Below are positions 21,036 to 41,435 of a stretch of DNA of 41,435 nt, one piece after another. The DNA comes from a virus. Within the stretch, counting starts at the first letter, position 1; every line of letters begins with the position of its first letter. The position numbers and the translations under genes are program-made. Below the pieces are notes generated by a model. It was not told the origin of the DNA. It ran no database searches and was given only the letters and a program-made list of their open reading frames with translations. The stretch lies in the IMG/VR virus record IMGVR_UViG_3300027719_000029, positions 1-41,435 of that record. One strand, 5' to 3'.

Positions 21036-21064
21036 TTGACGTCACATGACACATTGGATATACT
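21036..21064 (+). promoter_or_regulatory. Sigma70-type promoter of the HNH gene
   Basis: TTGACG at 21036-21041, then 17 bases, then TATACT at 21059-21064. Each hexamer differs from the consensus at one position. The expected transcription start (about 21071) falls at or next to the ATG of the HNH gene at 21072. The transcript would therefore be leaderless, which fits the absence of any ribosome-binding site there. Confidence 0.75.
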
Positions 21065-21071
21065 CCTCCTC

Positions 21072-21704
21072 ATGGAAAGCAAAACTTGTTCCGCTGGCAA
21101 AAGGTTTGGACGTTGGTTGGTTCTCTCGCCATGTGAAAAACAAGGCTCTCACAGGTATTGGATATGCCTGTGTGACTGCGGAGAGGTCAGGGAAGTTTGC
21201 GAGTATAGCCTCACAAAGGGAAAGTCTGTTTCGTGTGGATGCTTCAACAAAGAGGGGACCATCGCCAGATGCCTCACACACGGCCACGCAAACGGGGGCT
21301 ACGGGACAAGAACGTATAACGCTTGGCGGAACATGAAAGCCCGGTGCCAGAATCCCAACAACCACAAATACCCGCGATATGGTGGCCGGGGCATCGTTGT
21401 GTGCGATAGGTGGCAGTTGTTCGAGAGGTTCCTTGAGGACATGGGGCCGTGTCCAGGGTTGGGGTTTTCCATCGACAGGGTAGACAACGACCAGGGATAC
21501 TTTGCCGAAAACTGCCGGTGGGGCAGCGAATCGCAGCAGGCAAACAACAAAAGCACCAACAGGCTCATCTCCTGTTTTGGCGAGACAAAGACCCTCGCCG
21601 ATTGGGCAAGAGCCGTCGGGCTGAAGGCGGTCACTATCCACCAGCGCATCAAGCGAGGGTGGAGCGTTGAGCGGGCGCTGTCTGAATTGCGGCATAACAG
21701 GTAG
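21072..21704 (+). CDS. HNH homing-type endonuclease, 210 aa
   Basis: An N-terminal zinc-binding part (CLCDCGE at 32-38, SCGC at 54-57) is followed by an HNH domain at about 80-160: AWRNMKARCQNPNN, YGGRGIVVCDRW and SIDRVDNDQGYFAENCRW with QQANN after it. The C-terminus (TKTLADWARAVGLKAVTIHQRI) is a helix-turn-helix type DNA-binding tail. Such proteins cut and copy themselves into DNA lacking them. It is the only rightward gene in the leftward late operon, between two structural genes, with its own strong promoter and no terminator seen. I chose ATG 21072 because the promoter start point lies beside it. Confidence 0.85.
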   Translation: MESKTCSAGKRFGRWLVLSPCEKQGSHRYWICLCDCGEVREVCEYSLTKGKSVSCGCFNKEGTIARCLTHGHANGGYGTRTYNAWRNMKARCQNPNNHKYPRYGGRGIVVCDRWQLFERFLEDMGPCPGLGFSIDRVDNDQGYFAENCRWGSESQQANNKSTNRLISCFGETKTLADWARAVGLKAVTIHQRIKRGWSVERALSELRHNR

Positions 21705-26573: not shown

Positions 26574-26935
26574 GTGATCTCTAGTTTCCCGTCAACCTTC
26601 TGATGGATGTCCTGCCGCTCGATGTACCCGCGCTGCTTGCCCTGGCACTTGAGGTAAAAACAGATAGCGCCCAGGTCCTTGTCGCCGACCTTCGACATCA
26701 GCGCACTCTCGGCCAGGTCAAGATGCCGCTCCCGCACCTCTTCGATGACCGCCTGGAGTTCCGGGTGATTTTTGACCCTGACGCTCAGTGACCCGGGCAC
26801 GACGCCAAGCATCCGCGCCGCGTGAGTAATAAACCCACCAGACGCCCGCAGCGCCTCGGCGCACTCCTCAAGCGAGTTCTTCGCCCGGGTTGACCACACG
26901 GGTTTTTTTGCTTTGATTCGTTTGGCCTCACCCAT
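26558..26935 (-). CDS. terS: Terminase small subunit, 125 aa
   Basis: The start is ATG 26935 (GAGG upstream, 8-base overlap with the previous gene). A basic N-terminus (GEAKRIKAKKP) is followed by a helix-turn-helix region (about residues 34-57, GGFITHAARMLGVVPGSLSVRVKNHPEL) and a helical oligomerisation part (LQAVIEEVRERHLDLAESALMSKV, KDLGAICFYLKCQGKQRGY). This last phrase is typical of small terminases. It recognises the packaging site and hands DNA to TerL. It is directly upstream of terL. Confidence 0.8.
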   Translation of the reverse strand: MGEAKRIKAKKPVWSTRAKNSLEECAEALRASGGFITHAARMLGVVPGSLSVRVKNHPELQAVIEEVRERHLDLAESALMSKVGDKDLGAICFYLKCQGKQRGYIERQDIHQKVDGKLEITWQES

Positions 26936-27359
26936 TGTACGCCTCGTCCAAATAGGATTCACACGGCGTGCCGTCGTCGTTGCGGTTGCGCCAAAACATT
27001 TTGGGGGCAGCGCGCCGCGAGTGAGTTGATTTTCCGACCGGCGTTTGCTGCCGGTCCAGACCGGCGTTTAATGCCGGTAAACCATTAAGAGAACCATAGG
27101 CCGCGCAAAACTGGTATCGCGTCGTCTTCTGTGTCCTGGTGGCGACGAGGAGCTTTTTGGCGACAAGCCCGTGGATTGCCTCACGAACCGCCCGCTCTTT
27201 TAGCCCAGTTTCCATGCAAATCCTGGCCTGTCCCGGGTCACACCGCCCGGTTTTTTGGTTCCTGTGCCAGATCAGGCAAAGCGCCACGATTTTCTCCGGT
27301 GTTGTCAGGTCTTGCGCCTTAAAAACGAGACCCTGGAGGGTGATGTTCTCGTTTCCCAC
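26928..27359 (-). CDS. Winged-helix DNA-binding protein, first gene of the late operon, 143 aa
   Basis: The start is GTG 27359 after AGGGGG; an ATG two bases upstream is out of frame. Residues about 17-80 form a winged helix: TTPEKIVALCLIWHRN, GQARICMETGLKERAVREAIHGLVAKKLLVATRTQKTTRYQF, as in phage replication and packaging initiators that read host or phage DNA sites. The C-terminal 60 residues are basic and unordered. Being first in the late operon, just before the terminase genes, it could regulate late transcription or mark the packaging site. Both are inference. Confidence 0.65.
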   Translation of the reverse strand: MGNENITLQGLVFKAQDLTTPEKIVALCLIWHRNQKTGRCDPGQARICMETGLKERAVREAIHGLVAKKLLVATRTQKTTRYQFCAAYGSLNGLPALNAGLDRQQTPVGKSTHSRRAAPKMFWRNRNDDGTPCESYLDEAYNG

Positions 27360-27605
27360 ATTGTCGCCCCCTGTAGCGCCCTGATAGATTCGTTTGGGGC
27401 AGGCGGATCAGGGTTTCCGCTTTTCGACTGGCCGGTCTAGCCCCAAACAAAGTTGGCCCGCAAATTCTTCTGTGTCAGCACACAACCTAGCGCAATTGCT
27501 TGAGATAATATTTTGATAAACCTGTTGACTTGTTCGCGTTTGCGTACTATCTATTAGTCAACGGCGGACGGGACTTGGCCCGGGGCCACAAAACAGGAGA
27601 TGAAC
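27360..27605. promoter_or_regulatory. Divergent control region between the late operon and the small rightward cassette
   Basis: No gene here. Rightward: TTGACT at 27525-27530 with TATCTA at 27549-27554 (18-base spacing) is a candidate promoter. A 7-bp inverted repeat GTTGACT (27524-27530)/AGTCAAC (27556-27562) encloses it and could be an operator. Leftward: TATTAT at 27510-27505 is a good -10 without a recognisable -35, as expected of an activator-dependent late promoter. In the leftward 5' leader, a 9-bp inverted repeat (27392-27400 and 27440-27448) can form a stem. Confidence 0.5.
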
Positions 27606-30637: not shown

Positions 30638-30913
30638 CTAGTTCCTCGATGCAAATAGAGTGATGATGCGCCTCACATGACGTGGCGTGATGCCGAAACG
30701 CTCCGCGAGTTGCGCCACGCCGACGCCCCGCGACCATAGCGCAACGATTTTACCGTTCCGGTTCAGACGCCCATCGACGCCAGGCGGCAGCGGAATCCAC
30801 ATCGGCCCGCCGCCATCAGTCTCGCAGATATAGTCCACAACCGCCGTCGCCTGCTCCAACGTCACCACCCCTCGCTCCACGGCCCCCGTGATCCACCGTT
30901 CCCGTGTCGCCAT
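30638..30913 (-). CDS. Mor-like transcription activator, 91 aa
   Basis: Residues about 55-85 (NGKIVALWSRGVGVAQLAERFGITPRHVRRII) match the helix-turn-helix of Mor/C-type activators, with a preceding acidic helix and a GGPMWIPL bridge. The Mor/C group, known from Mu, binds near the -35 of promoters with poor -35 elements and recruits RNA polymerase. The late leader at 27360-27605 has a -10 without a -35, so this protein is the natural candidate for late-gene activation; that link is inference. ATG 30913 follows AAGGGGGGGGG. Confidence 0.65.
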   Translation of the reverse strand: MATRERWITGAVERGVVTLEQATAVVDYICETDGGGPMWIPLPPGVDGRLNRNGKIVALWSRGVGVAQLAERFGITPRHVRRIITLFASRN

Positions 30914-33638: not shown

Positions 33639-35345
33639 TTACTCAAAATATATCCCGCACTCGCGGGCGTACTTCAACTCCACCTTGCCAATCTTGCCGA
33701 CCTCGCGAAAACGAATCTTTTGAACGTAAATCTCGGTCACGTCGCGCTCGTAATCAGGGCGGTGGACGCAAATTCCGTTGTCCGCCTTGTTCCTCCAGTG
33801 TGCGCTGCCGGAGATGTCATACATAGTCGGGACTGGATATTCGCCGCTGTCCTTGCTTTTCTGCATCTTCGTCGGATGCGCGACAAGCCAGACGTGGACA
33901 TGGTTCATTCTCGCGAACCGTCGGACCTTCGTCAAAGATTGCGAGATGTAGTCAGTCTCGCTTATCTTGTCGCTACGATTATGCTCTATTTCGTTCCAAG
34001 GATCAATCACCACACCGCGACACCCGAACCGATAAATGGCGACACGCGCCTTTTGCAGGATGCTGTCGAGTGACATCTGGTCTTCGGGGGGCATGATGAA
34101 GTGAAAATATCCGGCCATGTATTCAAGGCCATCCCTCACCTCGTCATCCCGCATCCGCTCCGTGTAGCTGTACTTCGTGGAAAATGGTTTCCGGATGACC
34201 TTTTCCAGTAGGTTCGCCACATGCCTTTCGGGCGGCCAGTTCTCGGGCGAAAACAGCGCAAACCCCCACTCCTGGTCGCGATGCAGGTTGACCAGAAGCG
34301 CATCCAGCCAGTTTGATTTCCCCGACCCCGGGATTCCAGTGACAATCGTCATTTCTCCAAGGCGGACGGTGTAGAAGTCGTCAAGGCACAGCCAGCCGGT
34401 CGAGACTCCGGGGCGCATTCCTTCGGCGTACAAAAGCCCCACATCCCCGGCCAAGTCCGGAATCCCGAAAAGCCCCTCCACCGGCATCGGCACCGCGTTG
34501 GCGATGACTGCCGCCGCCGCGTCTTTGCCGTGATTAACCAGCACCTCGTTGATGTCCTTGCAGCCGTCGGGATAGGCGACGCGCCAGCACCGCTCGACGC
34601 CAATGCGCCGCGCAAGCTCACGCTCAAGCGTTTGCCCGGGTAAGTCGTTGTCCACGCACAGGATCACGCGCCCGTAAGCGGCTATAATCTCCTCGGCAGA
34701 CTCCAAAAAGCTGAACTTCTTTTCGTACTGCTTCGTATCGGGCGAAGGCGCACCGTCGGGAACGCTGGTGACGGCGTTGATGCCGATTGAAACCAGCGAA
34801 AGCGCGTCCATCTCGCCTTCGGTGATGACGAGATAGCGATTTGCGCTGGCGCGTGCGGCGATCTCGTCGAAGCGATACAGGCACTTTTCGGCGTCCTTGG
34901 CCTGGCGGAACCGCTTCTTGCCGTCGCGGAATTTGATGTTCACGACTTCGCCGCCCTTGACGTACGGAAACTGAATTGCCGTCACTTCGCCGTCAGTTCC
35001 GGGCATCCAGGCCAGGCCGTAGCCGACTCGGTTCGATGCCAGCGCATCGGGTGTGATCCCGCGACTAGCGAAGTACGCCAGCACCTTCTCGGGCAAGTCC
35101 ACGCTGGCCTTGTAAGCTGGCCGAACCGGCTTTCGCGGCAAAGGCTCTGGCTTTTCCGCCACACCCTTGACGGTTCCCGTCCAGCCGCAATGCCAGCAAT
35201 TCCACACGCCCTCGGTCACATTCACGCTCAAGCACGGGTCCGTGGACTTCTTACGGCTGGCGCTGCACTGCGGGCAGGTTGTTTTCACGTCGCCCGTGGC
35301 GTCAGCGGGGACGTGGATGCCGTATGACTTCAAGTTCATAGCCAT
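33639..35345 (-). CDS. Bifunctional primase-helicase (T7 gp4/Twinkle-like), 568 aa
   Basis: The start is ATG 35345, seven bases after GGAGGT; an ATG at 35339 is in frame. Domains in order: an N-terminal zinc finger (C24, C27, C50, C53), a Toprim primase core with EGEMDAL (176-182) and CVDND (about 231-234), then a RecA-like helicase with Walker A GIPGSGKS (337-344) and Walker B VVIDPWNE (445-452). It primes and unwinds DNA at the fork. No DNA polymerase is encoded, so it likely works with the host polymerase. It is followed by the ssb gene. Confidence 0.88.
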   Translation of the reverse strand: MAMNLKSYGIHVPADATGDVKTTCPQCSASRKKSTDPCLSVNVTEGVWNCWHCGWTGTVKGVAEKPEPLPRKPVRPAYKASVDLPEKVLAYFASRGITPDALASNRVGYGLAWMPGTDGEVTAIQFPYVKGGEVVNIKFRDGKKRFRQAKDAEKCLYRFDEIAARASANRYLVITEGEMDALSLVSIGINAVTSVPDGAPSPDTKQYEKKFSFLESAEEIIAAYGRVILCVDNDLPGQTLERELARRIGVERCWRVAYPDGCKDINEVLVNHGKDAAAAVIANAVPMPVEGLFGIPDLAGDVGLLYAEGMRPGVSTGWLCLDDFYTVRLGEMTIVTGIPGSGKSNWLDALLVNLHRDQEWGFALFSPENWPPERHVANLLEKVIRKPFSTKYSYTERMRDDEVRDGLEYMAGYFHFIMPPEDQMSLDSILQKARVAIYRFGCRGVVIDPWNEIEHNRSDKISETDYISQSLTKVRRFARMNHVHVWLVAHPTKMQKSKDSGEYPVPTMYDISGSAHWRNKADNGICVHRPDYERDVTEIYVQKIRFREVGKIGKVELKYARECGIYFE

Positions 35346-36088
35346 GCCGGGCACCTCCCGGATGTTTTCGCCGCCTGCGTCGGCTCGTCGTTCCACCCGT
35401 GGGCATTAATCCACGTCGCCGGGTGGGGGATGAACTGTCCGCCGTCCTTTTGCCAATCATGGCCCGCCTGTGCGGCTGCTATGGCTTGCAGGATCGTGGG
35501 AAGCGGCGGCAGCGTTTTTTCCTTGCGAAGCTTGCCCCAGGCTTTTTGCGCCTGCTGCTTCGAGCGCTTTTTCGGGTACGCCTGCCAGAAAGCGTCAAAC
35601 TCGCGCACCGCCGAAGGCAGGAGCGCAAGAGAGTCTTTCTCTTTCTTTATCTCTTCTTCTCTTATCTCCTCTCCTCTAGGTGTTTCCTGGCGTTGCGTGG
35701 CGTTACACGGCGTTACATTGTTGTAAGTGTCGTTACTTTCTTGCTTTTTCCTCTCGCGAAATTCCTTGACGCGCTGCGAACTGTCGTCGTCTCGCTCACG
35801 TTTTGGTTGACGCTTTTCCCATGCCGCGATCCGCCCGTCAGAAATCATCCCCTTGTCTTCCATGGCGACGTAAATTTTCCGTGCGCCACCGTCCTCAAGG
35901 TCAAGCAAGGCGTCGGCTCCCTCGTGGTCAAACACTTCCACTTTTCCCCGTTCTGGCGCTGCACAGGCCCGCTCCAGGAGCATCTGCCAGACAGCCAGCA
36001 CGTCGCCCAAACGCGCCCCCGATTTTTTGGCGACGACCAGGAACTTGGGGTCCGTGGCCGTCCCGACATAGTGGCGAAACCAGTCCAT
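35336..36088 (-). CDS. Replication initiator / helicase-loader-like protein, 250 aa
   Basis: The N-terminal 95 residues (MDWFRHYVGTATDPKFLVVAKKSG..., GDVLAVWQMLLERA, ALLDLEDGGARKIYVAMEDKGMI) form the winged-helix part typical of phage replication-initiator proteins. After a charged linker (about 105-155), the C-terminal part has EFDAFWQAYPKKRSKQQAQKAWGKL and QFIPHPATWINAHGWNDE, a common phage replication phrase. It is directly upstream of the primase-helicase, as expected for an initiator or loader. Origin DNA may lie within its own coding region; no clear iterons are seen. Confidence 0.7.
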   Translation of the reverse strand: MDWFRHYVGTATDPKFLVVAKKSGARLGDVLAVWQMLLERACAAPERGKVEVFDHEGADALLDLEDGGARKIYVAMEDKGMISDGRIAAWEKRQPKRERDDDSSQRVKEFRERKKQESNDTYNNVTPCNATQRQETPRGEEIREEEIKKEKDSLALLPSAVREFDAFWQAYPKKRSKQQAQKAWGKLRKEKTLPPLPTILQAIAAAQAGHDWQKDGGQFIPHPATWINAHGWNDEPTQAAKTSGRCPAWL

Positions 36089-36357: not shown

Positions 36358-36719
36358 GCCGCCACCGCCTCCCGTGCTTTAACTCGGGCACGATAAGCAC
36401 GGTTCAACTCTCGCTTTGCCGCGAGGTTGTGCGCCTTGACCTCGGCACGAAATGCCTGCCGATTAAGTTGCAAATACATCGAGTGGTCATTCTTGCACTT
36501 GACAGACCCGCAAGTGACTTGATTGTACTGGAAGGGACGAAACGTGACGTGGCAGTAAGGACACTCACGTTTTGGATAAAGGCCGGTCTTGTCTTTGATC
36601 TTCAACACGCGGACGCGCTCACAGAGGCACTCAAACTTGCCGCAGGTCTTTTGATTGTGAACACGGGGGCGGTAGACTTCTCCGCAAATGGAGCAAGTTT
36701 TTGTCCCAACGTCCTTCAT
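36354..36719 (-). CDS. Two-finger zinc protein, 121 aa
   Basis: Two matching zinc units, each C-x2-C-x13-C-x4-C: CSIC...TCGKFEC and CPYC...TCGSVKC, with the same R-P-...-NQ-T-C pattern in both, so they arose by duplication. The rest is a long basic helix (NRQAFRAEVKAHNLAAKRELNRAYRARVKAREAVA). It overlaps its neighbours by ATGA on both sides. It is probably nucleic-acid-binding. The next gene upstream has three more fingers of the same type. Confidence 0.65.
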   Translation of the reverse strand: MKDVGTKTCSICGEVYRPRVHNQKTCGKFECLCERVRVLKIKDKTGLYPKRECPYCHVTFRPFQYNQVTCGSVKCKNDHSMYLQLNRQAFRAEVKAHNLAAKRELNRAYRARVKAREAVAA

Positions 36720-37225
36720 GCCGCGACCTCCTGCCACCCAAACGGGCATATCTGCGGGTCAACGGGGAGCGGCCAGGGCGTGTCAAGGCGGGTGATCGGC
36801 CAGAGTTCGCCGTATTTATTGACGACGGACTTCGGATCGTGTCGCTTGCGGTCTTCGGTGTGAGGGTGCGAGGCGTTACTGGAAAGCAGGGCGCGGAAAC
36901 ACCCTTCTCCGCAGGTGACGCGCCTTGTCTGGCTTGTGATCTGCGCCCCGCAGACGACGCAAACAGTGGGCTTCGATGCCTGCCCCTTGTGCCTCGCGTT
37001 CCAGAGTGAAGCGCACGACATCGTGCAAAATCGCCCCGTCGCGTTTGCTGGCCGGAACAGCTTGCCGCAAAACTCACACGGCTTCACGGGCCGCCGCCGC
37101 AAATCATGGGATTGCGCCGCCGCCTGCTGACTTCGATTGATCTGGTCGCACTCGCGGCTGCATGTGATCCGCCATGGCTTGTCATCCGGGACCGGCTTGC
37201 CGCAAACCTTGCATGTCTTGGTCAT
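36716..37225 (-). CDS. Three-finger zinc protein, 169 aa
   Basis: The start is ATG 37225, in an ATGA overlap with the regulator stop. Three zinc units, C-x2-C-x12/13-C-x3-C, stand in a row: CKVC...TCSREC, CEFC...FCTMSC and CVVC...TCGEGC (about residues 5-110). The last 60 residues are unrelated and Pro/Trp-rich, with KSVVNKYGELWPITRLDTPWPLP. Likely DNA- or RNA-binding; an early regulator or host-takeover protein is plausible from its position behind the Cro/CI-type gene. Confidence 0.65.
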   Translation of the reverse strand: MTKTCKVCGKPVPDDKPWRITCSRECDQINRSQQAAAQSHDLRRRPVKPCEFCGKLFRPANATGRFCTMSCASLWNARHKGQASKPTVCVVCGAQITSQTRRVTCGEGCFRALLSSNASHPHTEDRKRHDPKSVVNKYGELWPITRLDTPWPLPVDPQICPFGWQEVAA

Positions 37226-37419
37226 TTTTTCCCATCCTGTATCAAAAACATCTCCAGCGGAACGGAAAAAACACGTTGATACGCCAAAGCCGCCTTTGCC
37301 GATATGCTGCGCTCCCCCCGGATGTGCCGCGTAACCGTAGACGGGGCCATCCCGGCAAGCCGCGAAAGCTCCGAAGGGCGCATACCGTAGATAACTAGAA
37401 GTCGTCTCAATTCGTTCAT
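37222..37419 (-). CDS. Cro/CI-type helix-turn-helix regulator, 65 aa
   Basis: One HTH domain: LRRLLVIYGMRPSELSRLAGMAPSTVTRHIRGERSISAKAALAYQRVF, with the turn at about residues 12-35, so close to the size of Cro. It is the first gene of the leftward block, just behind the divergent switch at 37420-37520, which carries three candidate operators. It most likely represses one or both promoters there. It has no cleavage domain, so a Cro-like timing role is more likely than lysogeny. The ribosome-binding site is weak. Confidence 0.75.
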   Translation of the reverse strand: MNELRRLLVIYGMRPSELSRLAGMAPSTVTRHIRGERSISAKAALAYQRVFSVPLEMFLIQDGKK

Positions 37420-37426
37420 GCGGGCC

Positions 37427-37455
37427 ACTTTGCCGGACAAATCCCGCCATGTCAA
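37427..37455 (-). promoter_or_regulatory. Leftward early promoter
   Basis: On the minus strand TTGACA (37455-37450), 17 bases, CAAAGT (37432-37427). The start of transcription would be about 10 bases before the ATG of the regulator at 37419, so the leader is very short. An operator-like dyad, TTTGCCGGACAAA (37429-37441), covers the -10. Confidence 0.65.
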
Positions 37456-37460
37456 CAATT

Positions 37461-37476
37461 TTTGCCATATGGTAAT
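37461..37476. promoter_or_regulatory. Central operator-like dyad between the divergent promoters
   Basis: TTTGCC-ATAT-GGTAAT, an imperfect 16-bp dyad with half-site TTTGCC. It sits just upstream of both -35 boxes. Its centre is about 33 bp from the centres of the flanking dyads (37429-37441 and 37494-37509), close to three turns of the helix, so all three sites face the same side. Confidence 0.6.
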
Positions 37477-37482
37477 TTCCCC

Positions 37483-37511
37483 TTGACACATTTTCTGCCA
37501 AGCGGCAAAGT
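37483..37511 (+). promoter_or_regulatory. Rightward early promoter
   Basis: TTGACA (37483-37488), 17 bases, CAAAGT (37506-37511): the same two hexamers and spacing as the opposite leftward promoter. A dyad TCTGCC-AAGC-GGCAAA (37494-37509) covers the -10. It would drive the rightward early block starting at 37668, leaving a leader of about 150 bases without a gene. Confidence 0.65.
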
Positions 37512-37667
37512 ACCCCCAACACGACGAGCGGCCCGCAGTAGCGACCGAGGCCAACACCACCAACCTTCGGGGTCCGGGAACGGCGGGGCAAAGCCCCTGA
37601 CACCGGACGGCGGCAGAGGCCAGGAAGACCGAGGCGGGAAGCGCGAAAGGGAACAAACGGAGGCGAC

Positions 37668-38369
37668 ATGGAAACTTTTAAGGTTGCATCACTGGATGAT
37701 ATTCAGCGGTTCAAAACCCCGGACGGCGACATGTATTTCGTTGACGGGCATCTGGAGATCATAGGCAAATTCTTGGTGGATATGCGGATTGAGGTGCGTG
37801 GGTACATCAAGGCTGGCGGGTCCATCAAGGCTGGCGGGTCCATCAAGGCTGGCGGGTCCATCAAGGCTGACGGGGACATCGAGGCTGACGGGTACATCGA
37901 GGCTGACGGGTACATCAAGGCTGGCTGGCACATCGAGGCTGGCTGGTACATCGAGGCTGACGGGTACATCGATGCTGGCGGGTCCATCGAGGCTGACGGG
38001 TACATCAAGGCTGACGGGGACATCGATGCTGGCGGGTCCATCAAGGCTGGCGGGTCCATCAAGGCTGGCGGGGACATCGAGGCTGACGGGTACATCGATG
38101 CTGGATTTGTTTTTTCGTTCATCTTTTCCGTGACCGCGAAGTGGATCAAAAATTCACGTCTTCCGTTTTGGAGAAACTTCTACGCCAAAATGCCGCCACT
38201 CCAACCCTGGGCAGAGATCATTAACGACGGATCGAAATGCTGGGGACACCTCAAAAACGTGCTTACGCGAGAAGAGGCCGAAACTGTGTGCGCGTGGGAC
38301 GGCTGGCATCCCCTGCTTCGCGGGCACCTGGAAGTATTTCTGGGGCTTAAAGACCGGTTTGAGCCGTAA
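37668..38369 (+). CDS. Hexapeptide-repeat beta-solenoid protein, 233 aa
   Basis: A 44-residue N-terminal part (ASLDDIQRFKTPDGDMYFVDGHLEI) is followed by 17 perfect-length hexapeptide repeats of the form G-x-I-(K/E/D)-A-(G/D) at residues 45-146. Ile at each third position and Ala at each fifth make a regular solenoid face, so a left- or right-handed parallel beta helix is expected. A hydrophobic stretch (FVFSFIFSVTAKWI) and a C-terminal domain with PPLQPWAEIINDG and an LTREEAETVCAWDGWHPLLRG helix follow. Function unknown. It is the first gene of the rightward early block and follows AACGGAGG. Confidence 0.75.
   Translation: METFKVASLDDIQRFKTPDGDMYFVDGHLEIIGKFLVDMRIEVRGYIKAGGSIKAGGSIKAGGSIKADGDIEADGYIEADGYIKAGWHIEAGWYIEADGYIDAGGSIEADGYIKADGDIDAGGSIKAGGSIKAGGDIEADGYIDAGFVFSFIFSVTAKWIKNSRLPFWRNFYAKMPPLQPWAEIINDGSKCWGHLKNVLTREEAETVCAWDGWHPLLRGHLEVFLGLKDRFEP
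37800..38105. repeat. Tandem 18-bp repeats, 17 units
   Basis: Seventeen in-frame units of 18 bp, consensus close to GG(G/C)NNCATC(A/G)AGGCTG(G/A)C. They differ mainly at the codon for the second residue and at the fourth and sixth codons. They lie inside the solenoid gene. The direct repeats could expand or contract by slippage or by the phage's own annealing protein. Confidence 0.9.
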
Positions 38370-38853: not shown

Positions 38854-39044
38854 ATGTCAAGGGATGCATCGACCCCCGGCACGCGGCTGCCCACGAGGCC
38901 ATGGTCCTGCGCCTGCACCGCCAGTTCGCGGAGATGGCGCGGGACGATGTCGAGGAGACGCCGGGTTACCAGCCCCGGCAGTTGGCCGAAAGACGGCCGT
39001 ACTACATGGCCGACCAAGTGGAGGTGGATGATGTTTCAATCTGA
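38850..39044 (+). CDS. Hypothetical protein, 64 aa
   Basis: ATG 38850 in an ATGA overlap. Helical in the middle (DPRHAAAHEAMVLRLHRQFAEMARDDVEE) with a Tyr/Pro/Arg-rich C-terminal part (GYQPRQLAERRPYYMADQ). No known motif. It immediately precedes the ERF gene, which starts inside its last codons, so it is translationally linked to recombination functions. Confidence 0.55.
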   Translation: MNVKGCIDPRHAAAHEAMVLRLHRQFAEMARDDVEETPGYQPRQLAERRPYYMADQVEVDDVSI

Positions 39045-39837
39045 CCAAATCGACCAGATTGCAACAGCTCTTTCCCTTGCGCAGGGGGAGATGGATGCGG
39101 CGGGGAGGAACGCGCAGAATCCGCACCTCAAAAACAAATATGCCGACATCGCGGCGGTTTGGGAGGCTGTGCGGAAGGTGCTGCCGAAACACGGGCTGGC
39201 CGTTGTGCAAACGATGCGGCCAGGTGACAGCCGCGCCCATGTCGTGACGACGCTCATGCACAAGTCCGGGCAATGGCTCTCGGGCGAGTGCGCTCTGCCG
39301 GTGCCCAAAAACGATCCGCAGGGCTACGGGTCCGCGATCACCTACGCCCGCCGCTACTCTCTTTCGGCCATGCTCGGAGTGGTGTCCGAGGACGACGACG
39401 ACGGCGAGGGCGCGAAGCAGAAGCCCAAGGAGACGGCAACTCGTCCCGCGCCCCCGGCCCCCACCTTCTCCTCGCTCGACCTGCCCGCCATCAGCGAGGC
39501 GTTGCAGTCCATCGGAAAATCGGCCGACCTTGTGCCGTATTTGTCGGGCCTTCACATTCCCAAGGATCACCCGGACAAGCCAGCCGTCGTCACGCTGTAC
39601 GAGGCGCGACGCAAGGCCCTGGAGATCACGGGCGATGTGCCGCCGCCGTCCGCACCGCAGATGATGAACGACGGCCAGCGCAAGGCCATCATGGCGCATT
39701 ACAAGGGTGCGTCGCGGGATGACCGGCTGGCGGATATGAGTTCGTTCCTGAATCGGCGTGTGAACTCGTTCAAGGAACTGACGGCAGACGAGGCGCATGC
39801 GTTTTTGGAAGATGTGAAGGAGGTGGAGAATGCCTAG
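39031..39837 (+). CDS. erf: ERF-family single-strand annealing protein, 268 aa
   Basis: The start is ATG 39031, five bases after GGAGGT. The ERF domain covers about residues 8-125: LSLAQGEMDAAGRNAQNPHLKNKYADIAAVWEAVRKVLPKHGLAVVQ, then the signature GYGSAITYARRYSLSAMLGVVSEDDDDG. A Pro-rich linker and a helical C-terminal part (about 150-268) follow, with the MAHYKG.SR and FKELTADEAHAFLEDV helices. The protein anneals complementary single strands for phage recombination and genome circularisation. It is next to a Gp157-like gene, a usual partner. Confidence 0.85.
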   Translation: MFQSDQIDQIATALSLAQGEMDAAGRNAQNPHLKNKYADIAAVWEAVRKVLPKHGLAVVQTMRPGDSRAHVVTTLMHKSGQWLSGECALPVPKNDPQGYGSAITYARRYSLSAMLGVVSEDDDDGEGAKQKPKETATRPAPPAPTFSSLDLPAISEALQSIGKSADLVPYLSGLHIPKDHPDKPAVVTLYEARRKALEITGDVPPPSAPQMMNDGQRKAIMAHYKGASRDDRLADMSSFLNRRVNSFKELTADEAHAFLEDVKEVENA

Positions 39838-40342
39838 CTTAAACGACATCCAGCACGAGATCGAAAACGCGCTCACGGCGCTGGACGACTTCGAGGGGGA
39901 GGAGGACGAGCGCCAGGCCGTCGCCGCAGCCATCGAGCCGTACCTGGCCGCCCTGGCGACGCAGGAGGCCGGGAAGGTGGACGCCATCGCCAAGATGGAC
40001 CGGCGCACCGAAAACGAGATCGAGTTCCTCAAGGAAGAGGAGAAGCGCGTGGCCGCCAAACGCCGCACGCTGGAGCGCCGCCGCGCCTCGTTCCGTGAGT
40101 TTTTGAAGGTGACGATGATGGCCCATGGGTTGAAGAAACTCGCCGGGCACTCCGCCACGCTGTCGCTGCGGACCACGGAGTCGGTGCTGGTCACGGGAAA
40201 TCCGCAGAGTTTGCCGCAGGAGTTCGTGACGACGACGATCTCATACGCGCCCAAAAAGACCGAGATCAAGGCGGCGCTCAAGGCGGGCATGGAGATTCCC
40301 GGCTGCGAGATCGTCCACGGCCAGACGGTGCAGGTGAGGTAA
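39830..40342 (+). CDS. Gp157-like protein, 170 aa
   Basis: Siphovirus Gp157-like architecture: a helical N-terminus (LNDIQHEIENALTALDDFEGEEDERQAVAAAIEPY), a long charged coiled coil (about residues 55-95, MDRRTENEIEFLKEEEKRVAAKRRTLERRRASF) and a C-terminal part with the family phrase FVTTTISYAPKKTEIKAALKAGMEIPGCEIV. These proteins are common beside ERF/RecT genes and were first linked to phage resistance in streptococci. Exact role unknown. The ATG lies 8 bases inside the ERF gene end. Confidence 0.8.
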   Translation: MPSLNDIQHEIENALTALDDFEGEEDERQAVAAAIEPYLAALATQEAGKVDAIAKMDRRTENEIEFLKEEEKRVAAKRRTLERRRASFREFLKVTMMAHGLKKLAGHSATLSLRTTESVLVTGNPQSLPQEFVTTTISYAPKKTEIKAALKAGMEIPGCEIVHGQTVQVR

Positions 40343-41238: not shown

Positions 41239-41406
41239 ATGGGCAACACCACAACGACGCTCGTCCGTGTGCTTTTGGAGAGAACAGACTTCCCGGAAGG
41301 GACGCGAGAGCGATACGCCGTGCGTCTGTCAAGAGACCTCCCCCAAAATATGAACGATGCGGCAAACATCATGACCAGAAACGCCAAGGGACTGCCCCAA
41401 GCGTGA
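41239..41406 (+). CDS. Small basic protein running over the circular join, 55 aa
   Basis: ATG 41239 follows a perfect AGGAGG (41227-41232) at six bases, which decides it over the GTG at 41218. The protein starts MGNTTTTLVRVLLERTDF and continues with a basic strand-helix pattern (RERYAVRLSRDLP, then NMNDAANIMTRNAKG). No family recognised. Its end is repeated at positions 1-98 because of the terminal overlap. In the circle it is followed by the gene at 138. Confidence 0.65.
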   Translation: MGNTTTTLVRVLLERTDFPEGTRERYAVRLSRDLPQNMNDAANIMTRNAKGLPQA

Positions 41407-41435
41407 CCATATTCCCGGTAACGGAAAAATGATGA
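41309..41435. repeat. Right copy of 127-bp terminal direct repeat
   Basis: Identical to positions 1-127. It marks the circular closure of the assembled genome. See the left copy. Confidence 0.95.

Follow-up and report, generated by a model that had tools for sequence, protein, structure and literature searches.

Genome Organization and Gene Layout

The window considered here is the whole stretch of DNA that was analysed, a viral record of 41,435 bases in which bases 1-127 and 41309-41435 form an exact direct terminal repeat, giving a unit of 41,308 bp. Owing to this exact 127-bp end repeat, the viral genome is probably complete. Its major capsid protein shares 34-36% identity with that of podoviruses, e.g., MW202481, Venkman and Pseudomonas phage NV1, and its portal protein matches the same MW202481/Venkman/NV1 group at 21-24%. 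Phage tf, a member of the podovirus group of the capsid matches, is lytic and possesses two converging gene sets that are both read by the host RNA polymerase (PMC3517423).

Two gene blocks diverge at about 37.4-37.7 kb, where the sign of the GC skew switches. The early part of the leftward block comprises a 65-aa XRE/HTH_3 regulator (37222..37419, minus strand, ATG at 37419), zinc-finger proteins, a replication initiator, a DNA primase/helicase (33639..35396, minus strand; phrog_239, E 7.9e-93) and SSB, after which follow a Mor-like activator, terminase, portal, capsid and tail genes. The start of the gene next to the regulator, which encodes a treble-clef/HNH-like zinc-finger protein (36716..37225, minus strand), overlaps the regulator stop by ATGA, an arrangement through which the two genes are likely to be translationally coupled. 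The rightward block starts with a short-repeat, FapA-like β-solenoid protein (37668..38369, plus strand; Pfam FapA, E 6.8e-8), continues with an ERF single-strand annealing protein (38854..39837, plus strand; Pfam ERF, E 1.4e-28), a Siphovirus Gp157/Gam-like protein (39830..40342, plus strand; Pfam E 1.4e-32, PHROG 253) and unknown genes, and extends across the end repeat as far as about 1.7 kb. The product of its first gene is made of near-perfect six-residue repeats (KAGGSI, EADGYI etc.) and weakly resembles FapA β-solenoids or acyltransferases.

Other features deserve mention outside of this region. Between the early and the late genes, the minus strand encodes the Mor-like protein, a late activator candidate (30638-30913; phrog_532, E 5.7e-6). 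This integrase-free phage also contains a strong match to the int-alpA RNA (27379-27447, minus strand; Rfam RF02996, 56.2 bits vs a gathering threshold of 35.8), situated a short distance upstream of the terminase genes and of an HTH_36 gene (26928-27359).

The Divergent Promoter Pair

Two candidate early promoters face away from each other in the interval between the two blocks. The leftward one (37427..37455, minus strand) has its -35 box TTGACA on the complement of 37450-37455 and its -10 box CAAAGT on the complement of 37427-37432, while the rightward one (37483..37511, plus strand) has its -35 and -10 boxes at 37483-37488 and 37506-37511, respectively. Direct reading of the sequence thus confirms the form TTGACA-N17-CAAAGT attributed to both promoters in the initial annotation, and the identity of the two arms extends even further, to TTGACA-N14-CGGCAAAGT on both. 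With both -35 boxes as well as A2 and T6 of the -10 boxes taken as given, the probability that the seven further matched bases agree by chance is about 8e-5. With respect to the sigma-70 consensus, each promoter combines a perfect -35 box and a spacing of 17 bp (16-18 bp being accepted) with a weak -10 hexamer, which shares three of the six bases of TATAAT, including A2 and T6; it is because of these weak -10 hexamers that a stock promoter scanner missed both promoters. No other TTGACA-N17-NANNNT site occurs in the whole window, and the pair is the only back-to-back divergent promoter pair of the genome. Such pairs were absent from 30 whole-genome shuffles, and one was found in a single one of 200,000 simulated 101-mers of local composition. 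The axis of the promoter pair lies at 37469.0. A duplication of the whole element in inverted orientation was considered and rejected, since the arms are identical at 15 of 29 positions, i.e., at the level of random sequences, and the overall symmetry about 37469.0 reaches only z = 2.

On the right, transcription is predicted to start at about 37518, leaving a leader of about 150 nt, in which no known RNA family was found, up to the ATG of the 37668 gene, whose Shine-Dalgarno pairing amounts to -9.5 kcal/mol. On the left, the ATG of the regulator is located at a distance of eight bases from the end of the -10 box, so that the RNA would start at 37419-37420, at the ATG itself or one base before. 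The regulator gene has no Shine-Dalgarno sequence, its pairing with the anti-Shine-Dalgarno (-2.3 kcal/mol) being almost the weakest among the 32 genes examined, and its mRNA is accordingly predicted, from the sequence, to be leaderless. Leaderless mRNAs are documented for both cI and cro of phage PY54 (PMC4488713) and for the controller genes of restriction-modification (R-M) systems (PMC4824078). The longer TTG/ATG frames across the region, 37222-37656 and 36716-37669, were judged accidental extensions of real genes, given that the 65-aa form contains the HTH_3 match from its residue 5 onward. As a whole, the replication genes on the left and the ERF/Gp157 recombination genes on the right, transcribed in opposite directions, support the previous proposal of divergent early promoters between the two blocks.

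The best sigma-70-like promoter of the window, TTGACG-N17-TATACT, belongs to another gene, that of an HNH endonuclease (21036-21704, plus strand; phrog_374, E 5.6e-60), which is oriented against the late genes. The ATG of this gene has the same eight-base distance from the end of the -10 box, which makes it a second candidate leaderless gene.

The TTTGCC Dyads

Three dyads related to TTTGCC half-sites can be read directly in the control region. Dyad A (37429..37441), TTTGCC-G-GACAAA, spans 13 bp with a gap of 1 and one mismatch to the half-sites; dyad B (37461..37476), TTTGCC-ATAT-GGTAAT, located between the -35 boxes, spans 16 bp with a gap of 4 and two mismatches; dyad C (37494..37509), TCTGCC-AAGC-GGCAAA, also spans 16 bp with a gap of 4, and has one mismatch. 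Their axes lie at 37435, 37468.5 and 37501.5, that of dyad B being close to the axis of the promoter pair (37468.5 vs 37469.0). The spacings of 33.5 and 33 bp agree with the even spacing of about 33 bp described previously, but this evenness is mainly a consequence of the mirror layout of the promoters. Similarly, dyads A and C do sit on the leftward and rightward -10 boxes, respectively, but each overlaps just four of the six bases instead of covering the box.

In an unbiased search, in which all 4096 hexamers competed as half-site with gaps of 0 to 6, TTTGCC came out as the best word with a score of 5, a value reached in 20 of 6000 simulations. Among the 1654 windows of a genome scan, only that starting at 37426 attained this score. 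Limiting the search to a gap of 4 leaves only dyads B and C, with a weaker signal (6 of 250 simulations). The set of three dyads recognized in the initial annotation is therefore above chance, but the unequal gaps of 1, 4 and 4 mean that they are not three equivalent operators, since a single dimer geometry cannot fit both a gap of 1 and a gap of 4. For dyad A, the possibilities are a weaker site, a lone half-site or no site at all.

No copy of the candidate operator region with a diverged sequence was found in IMG/VR, the sole match being the contig IMGVR_UViG_3300004154_000058, which is 100% identical over the 6632 bp compared. Searches with the exact two-promoter pattern, the regulator and the zinc-finger gene returned only the identical contig or distant HTH proteins, and L005, which matches in the primase/helicase at 85%, is devoid of such a divergent region.

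The 65-Residue Regulator and the Search for Lysogeny Functions

The regulator matches Pfam HTH_3 with 26.8 bits (E 5.5e-6) vs a gathering threshold of 23. Together with its position, this match bears out the previous identification of a Cro/CI-type gene as the first gene on the left. A single-sequence fold model was poor and an AlphaFold2 model built from a three-sequence alignment was used instead; this model displays a confident five-helix, λ-repressor-like fold (pLDDT 87.8), and the 65-aa protein is, as modelled, a five-helix XRE/HTH_3 regulator. The model superposes with a TM of about 0.8 on HigA antitoxins, the controller proteins C.AhdI and C.BclI, and SinR, at a Foldseek probability of 1.00 and with E values that do not fall below 0.001. 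With just 32-33% identity, the relatives of the regulator are too distant for a transfer of specificity.

Neither an integrase (PF00589) nor a resolvase (PF00239) was detected in the genome, the controls being positive, in accordance with the earlier description of a phage without integrase. No S24/LexA-like domain (PF00717) occurs in the genome, and the regulator, with only 65 residues, has neither the domain nor the size of a CI-type repressor. The regulator is also the sole HTH_3 protein of the genome, which thus lacks the opposed cI and cro pair of a lambdoid immunity region. No partition or plasmid replication family was found among the ORFs scanned. As the genome is likely complete, the absence of integrase, resolvase, S24 domain and second HTH_3 protein carries weight and, taken together with the lack of plasmid functions, makes a lysogeny switch unlikely.

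Comparison with Capsid Relatives and Known Systems

MW202481, a podovirus from Manatee Spring, and the Methylophilales phage Venkman (MT375522) possess major capsid proteins about 36% identical to that of the present phage. Each encodes a Cro of 55-58 aa at the head of its replication block, with another block running the opposite way and neither a CI nor an integrase annotated. Their regulators have no detectable sequence similarity to that described here and, unlike it, are encoded by cro genes that have Shine-Dalgarno sequences. Beside its cro, MW202481 exhibits two back-to-back promoters separated by 21 bp, TTGACA-N16-TAGAAT reading leftward and TTGACA-N17-TATAGT reading rightward; shuffles of this AT-rich genome yield 0.57 such pairs on average, so that what counts is the position of the pair beside cro. 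Venkman has TTGACA promoters but no back-to-back pair by the criteria used. A de novo dyad search found neither TTTGCC dyads nor a comparable triple in MW202481 or Venkman, and no cro is annotated in three other capsid relatives from Manatee Spring. In MW202481 (positions 4000-4145), the sequences just past both -10 boxes, GGCTTTCGTTGAA and CGGCTTCATTCAAC, are alike and are perhaps that phage's own paired operators, to judge from their likeness.

In the right operator of phage λ, which is used by two proteins, 17-bp sites lie about 23-24 bp apart, two overlapping PR and the third PRM. The resemblance to this operator put forward in the initial annotation is loose, since the sites of the present element are about 33 bp apart, are placed symmetrically with respect to two promoters, differ in their internal spacing and would serve one regulator. 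Taking λ cro/PR and PL together, the common points are a small HTH protein heading the replication block, a recombination block transcribed in the opposite direction and several related dyads on the early promoters. In contrast to λ, no cI separates the promoters, which lie back to back at a distance of 27 bp, the dyads, about 33 bp apart, are unequal in their half-site spacing, the gene in the Cro position is apparently leaderless, and the regulator exhibits a five-helix, HigA/C-protein-like fold instead of the α/β fold of λ Cro.

The cI/cro switch of the telomere phage PY54 shares with the present region leaderless regulator mRNAs (predicted here), a 16-bp palindromic operator (candidate here), a short divergent intergenic region and an AT-rich stretch near a promoter; PY54 differs in being temperate, in having both CI and Cro, and in that its Cro binds a single site (PMC4488713). 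The R-M controllers C.AhdI, C.BclI and C.Csp231I have the same size and five-helix HTH_3 fold, a leaderless own gene (predicted here) and operators (candidate here) on their own promoter, but the regulator has no SQE patch and no methyltransferase partner was found. An R-M system was rejected, as no methyltransferase occurs among the ORFs scanned and the next gene is just distantly HNH-like. The autoregulating HTH_3 antitoxins of the HigA type, in spite of providing the top fold matches, are larger (about 90 vs 65 aa), and a HigBA system was also rejected, with a TIGR02607 score of 17.5 vs a cut-off of 47.7 and, in place of a HigB-like neighbour, a zinc-finger protein. No paper describing such an arrangement was found in a literature search.

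Proposed Mechanism and Alternative Explanations

The region is a real, compact and above-chance divergent control region. It probably functions, in our opinion, as a CI-less, Cro-like autorepressor switch by which the two early blocks are timed and balanced in the course of lytic growth. We infer a lytic lifestyle in which the host RNA polymerase would start both early blocks at once from the two sigma-70-type promoters. The leftward promoter would give a leaderless mRNA, with the XRE regulator gene in first position and the replication genes behind it, and the rightward promoter would serve the recombination block (ERF, Gp157). As they accumulate, dimers of the regulator would bind the TTTGCC-type dyads over both -10 boxes and that between the -35 boxes, and by covering the -10 and spacer regions would turn down both promoters, its own included. 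Early expression would thus be limited before the late genes take over, perhaps via the Mor-like protein. In favour of this Cro-like switch are the unique promoter pair, far above chance, the dyad set sitting on it, likewise unique and above chance, the HTH_3 nature of the regulator, without a second member of this family in the genome, the regulator ATG at the predicted transcript start without Shine-Dalgarno, the absence of integrase, resolvase and S24 from a genome with an exact end repeat, and the cro-first layout of two capsid relatives with no annotated CI or integrase, one of which, MW202481, has its back-to-back TTGACA promoters beside cro. Against it stand the dyad gaps of 1, 4 and 4, the modest signal at gap 4 only, the poor -10 boxes, the want of a diverged relative that keeps the dyads and of a comparable triple in MW202481 or Venkman, and the low identity (32-33%) of the regulator to its relatives.

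The same inconsistent spacing and the 6 of 250 simulations at gap 4 would also suit real early promoters whose TTTGCC dyads do not serve the 65-aa protein as operators. In this case the protein would act elsewhere, CGGCAAAGT would be a host-specific form of the -10 region and dyad B an A+T-rich, UP-element-like stretch. The outer half-sites coincide with the -10 boxes and could be produced by a common promoter sequence alone. However, the unbiased search (20 of 6000 simulations, a single genome window) argues against this explanation, as does the fact that an HTH_3 protein encoded by the first gene beside its own promoter usually autoregulates, and we regard it as unlikely. The proximity of the fold model to C.AhdI and C.BclI (TM of about 0.8), the predicted leaderless mRNA, as in C genes, and the position of the central dyad, symmetrically upstream of both promoters, would fit a protein that both activates and represses, stimulating one or both promoters from the central dyad at low level and repressing from the -10 dyads at high level. 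Such a function is quite improbable, given that the centre of dyad B falls near position -49.5 relative to both predicted starts instead of the usual -41.5, that the regulator reads R-P-S-E-L-S where C proteins carry their SQE activation patch (PMC4824078), and that methyltransferases are missing from the ORFs scanned. Even less probable, indeed very improbable, is a role in maintenance, in which the 65-aa protein would shut down both early blocks while the phage persists without integrase as an episome, i.e., a phage-plasmid or pseudolysogen. Closing both promoters would silence all early genes, and the single int-alpA RNA match belongs to a family named for integrase-linked elements, but the ORFs scanned hold no partition or plasmid replication family, integrase and S24 are lacking, and the regulator heads the replication block, like Cro, instead of a separate immunity operon.

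Returning to the Cro-like switch, a more far-reaching and rather doubtful version of it would have a single 65-aa regulator running both early blocks of a lytic phage through a near-symmetric element, three dyads of two spacings giving the promoters a differing sensitivity, as a Cro-without-CI timing device that, with the cro-first, CI-less layout of the distant capsid relatives, would form a recurrent class in integrase-free podoviruses. From the unequal dyad spacing, an unequal repression of the two blocks is predicted. The region offers a compact variant of a familiar phage theme, and a Cro-without-CI switch would overturn no known principle. The role of a Cro-like repressor without an opposing CI is nevertheless a testable question which this circuit addresses and, with 101 bp, one regulator and two mirror promoters, the element comes close to being the smallest natural circuit for measuring Cro without CI.
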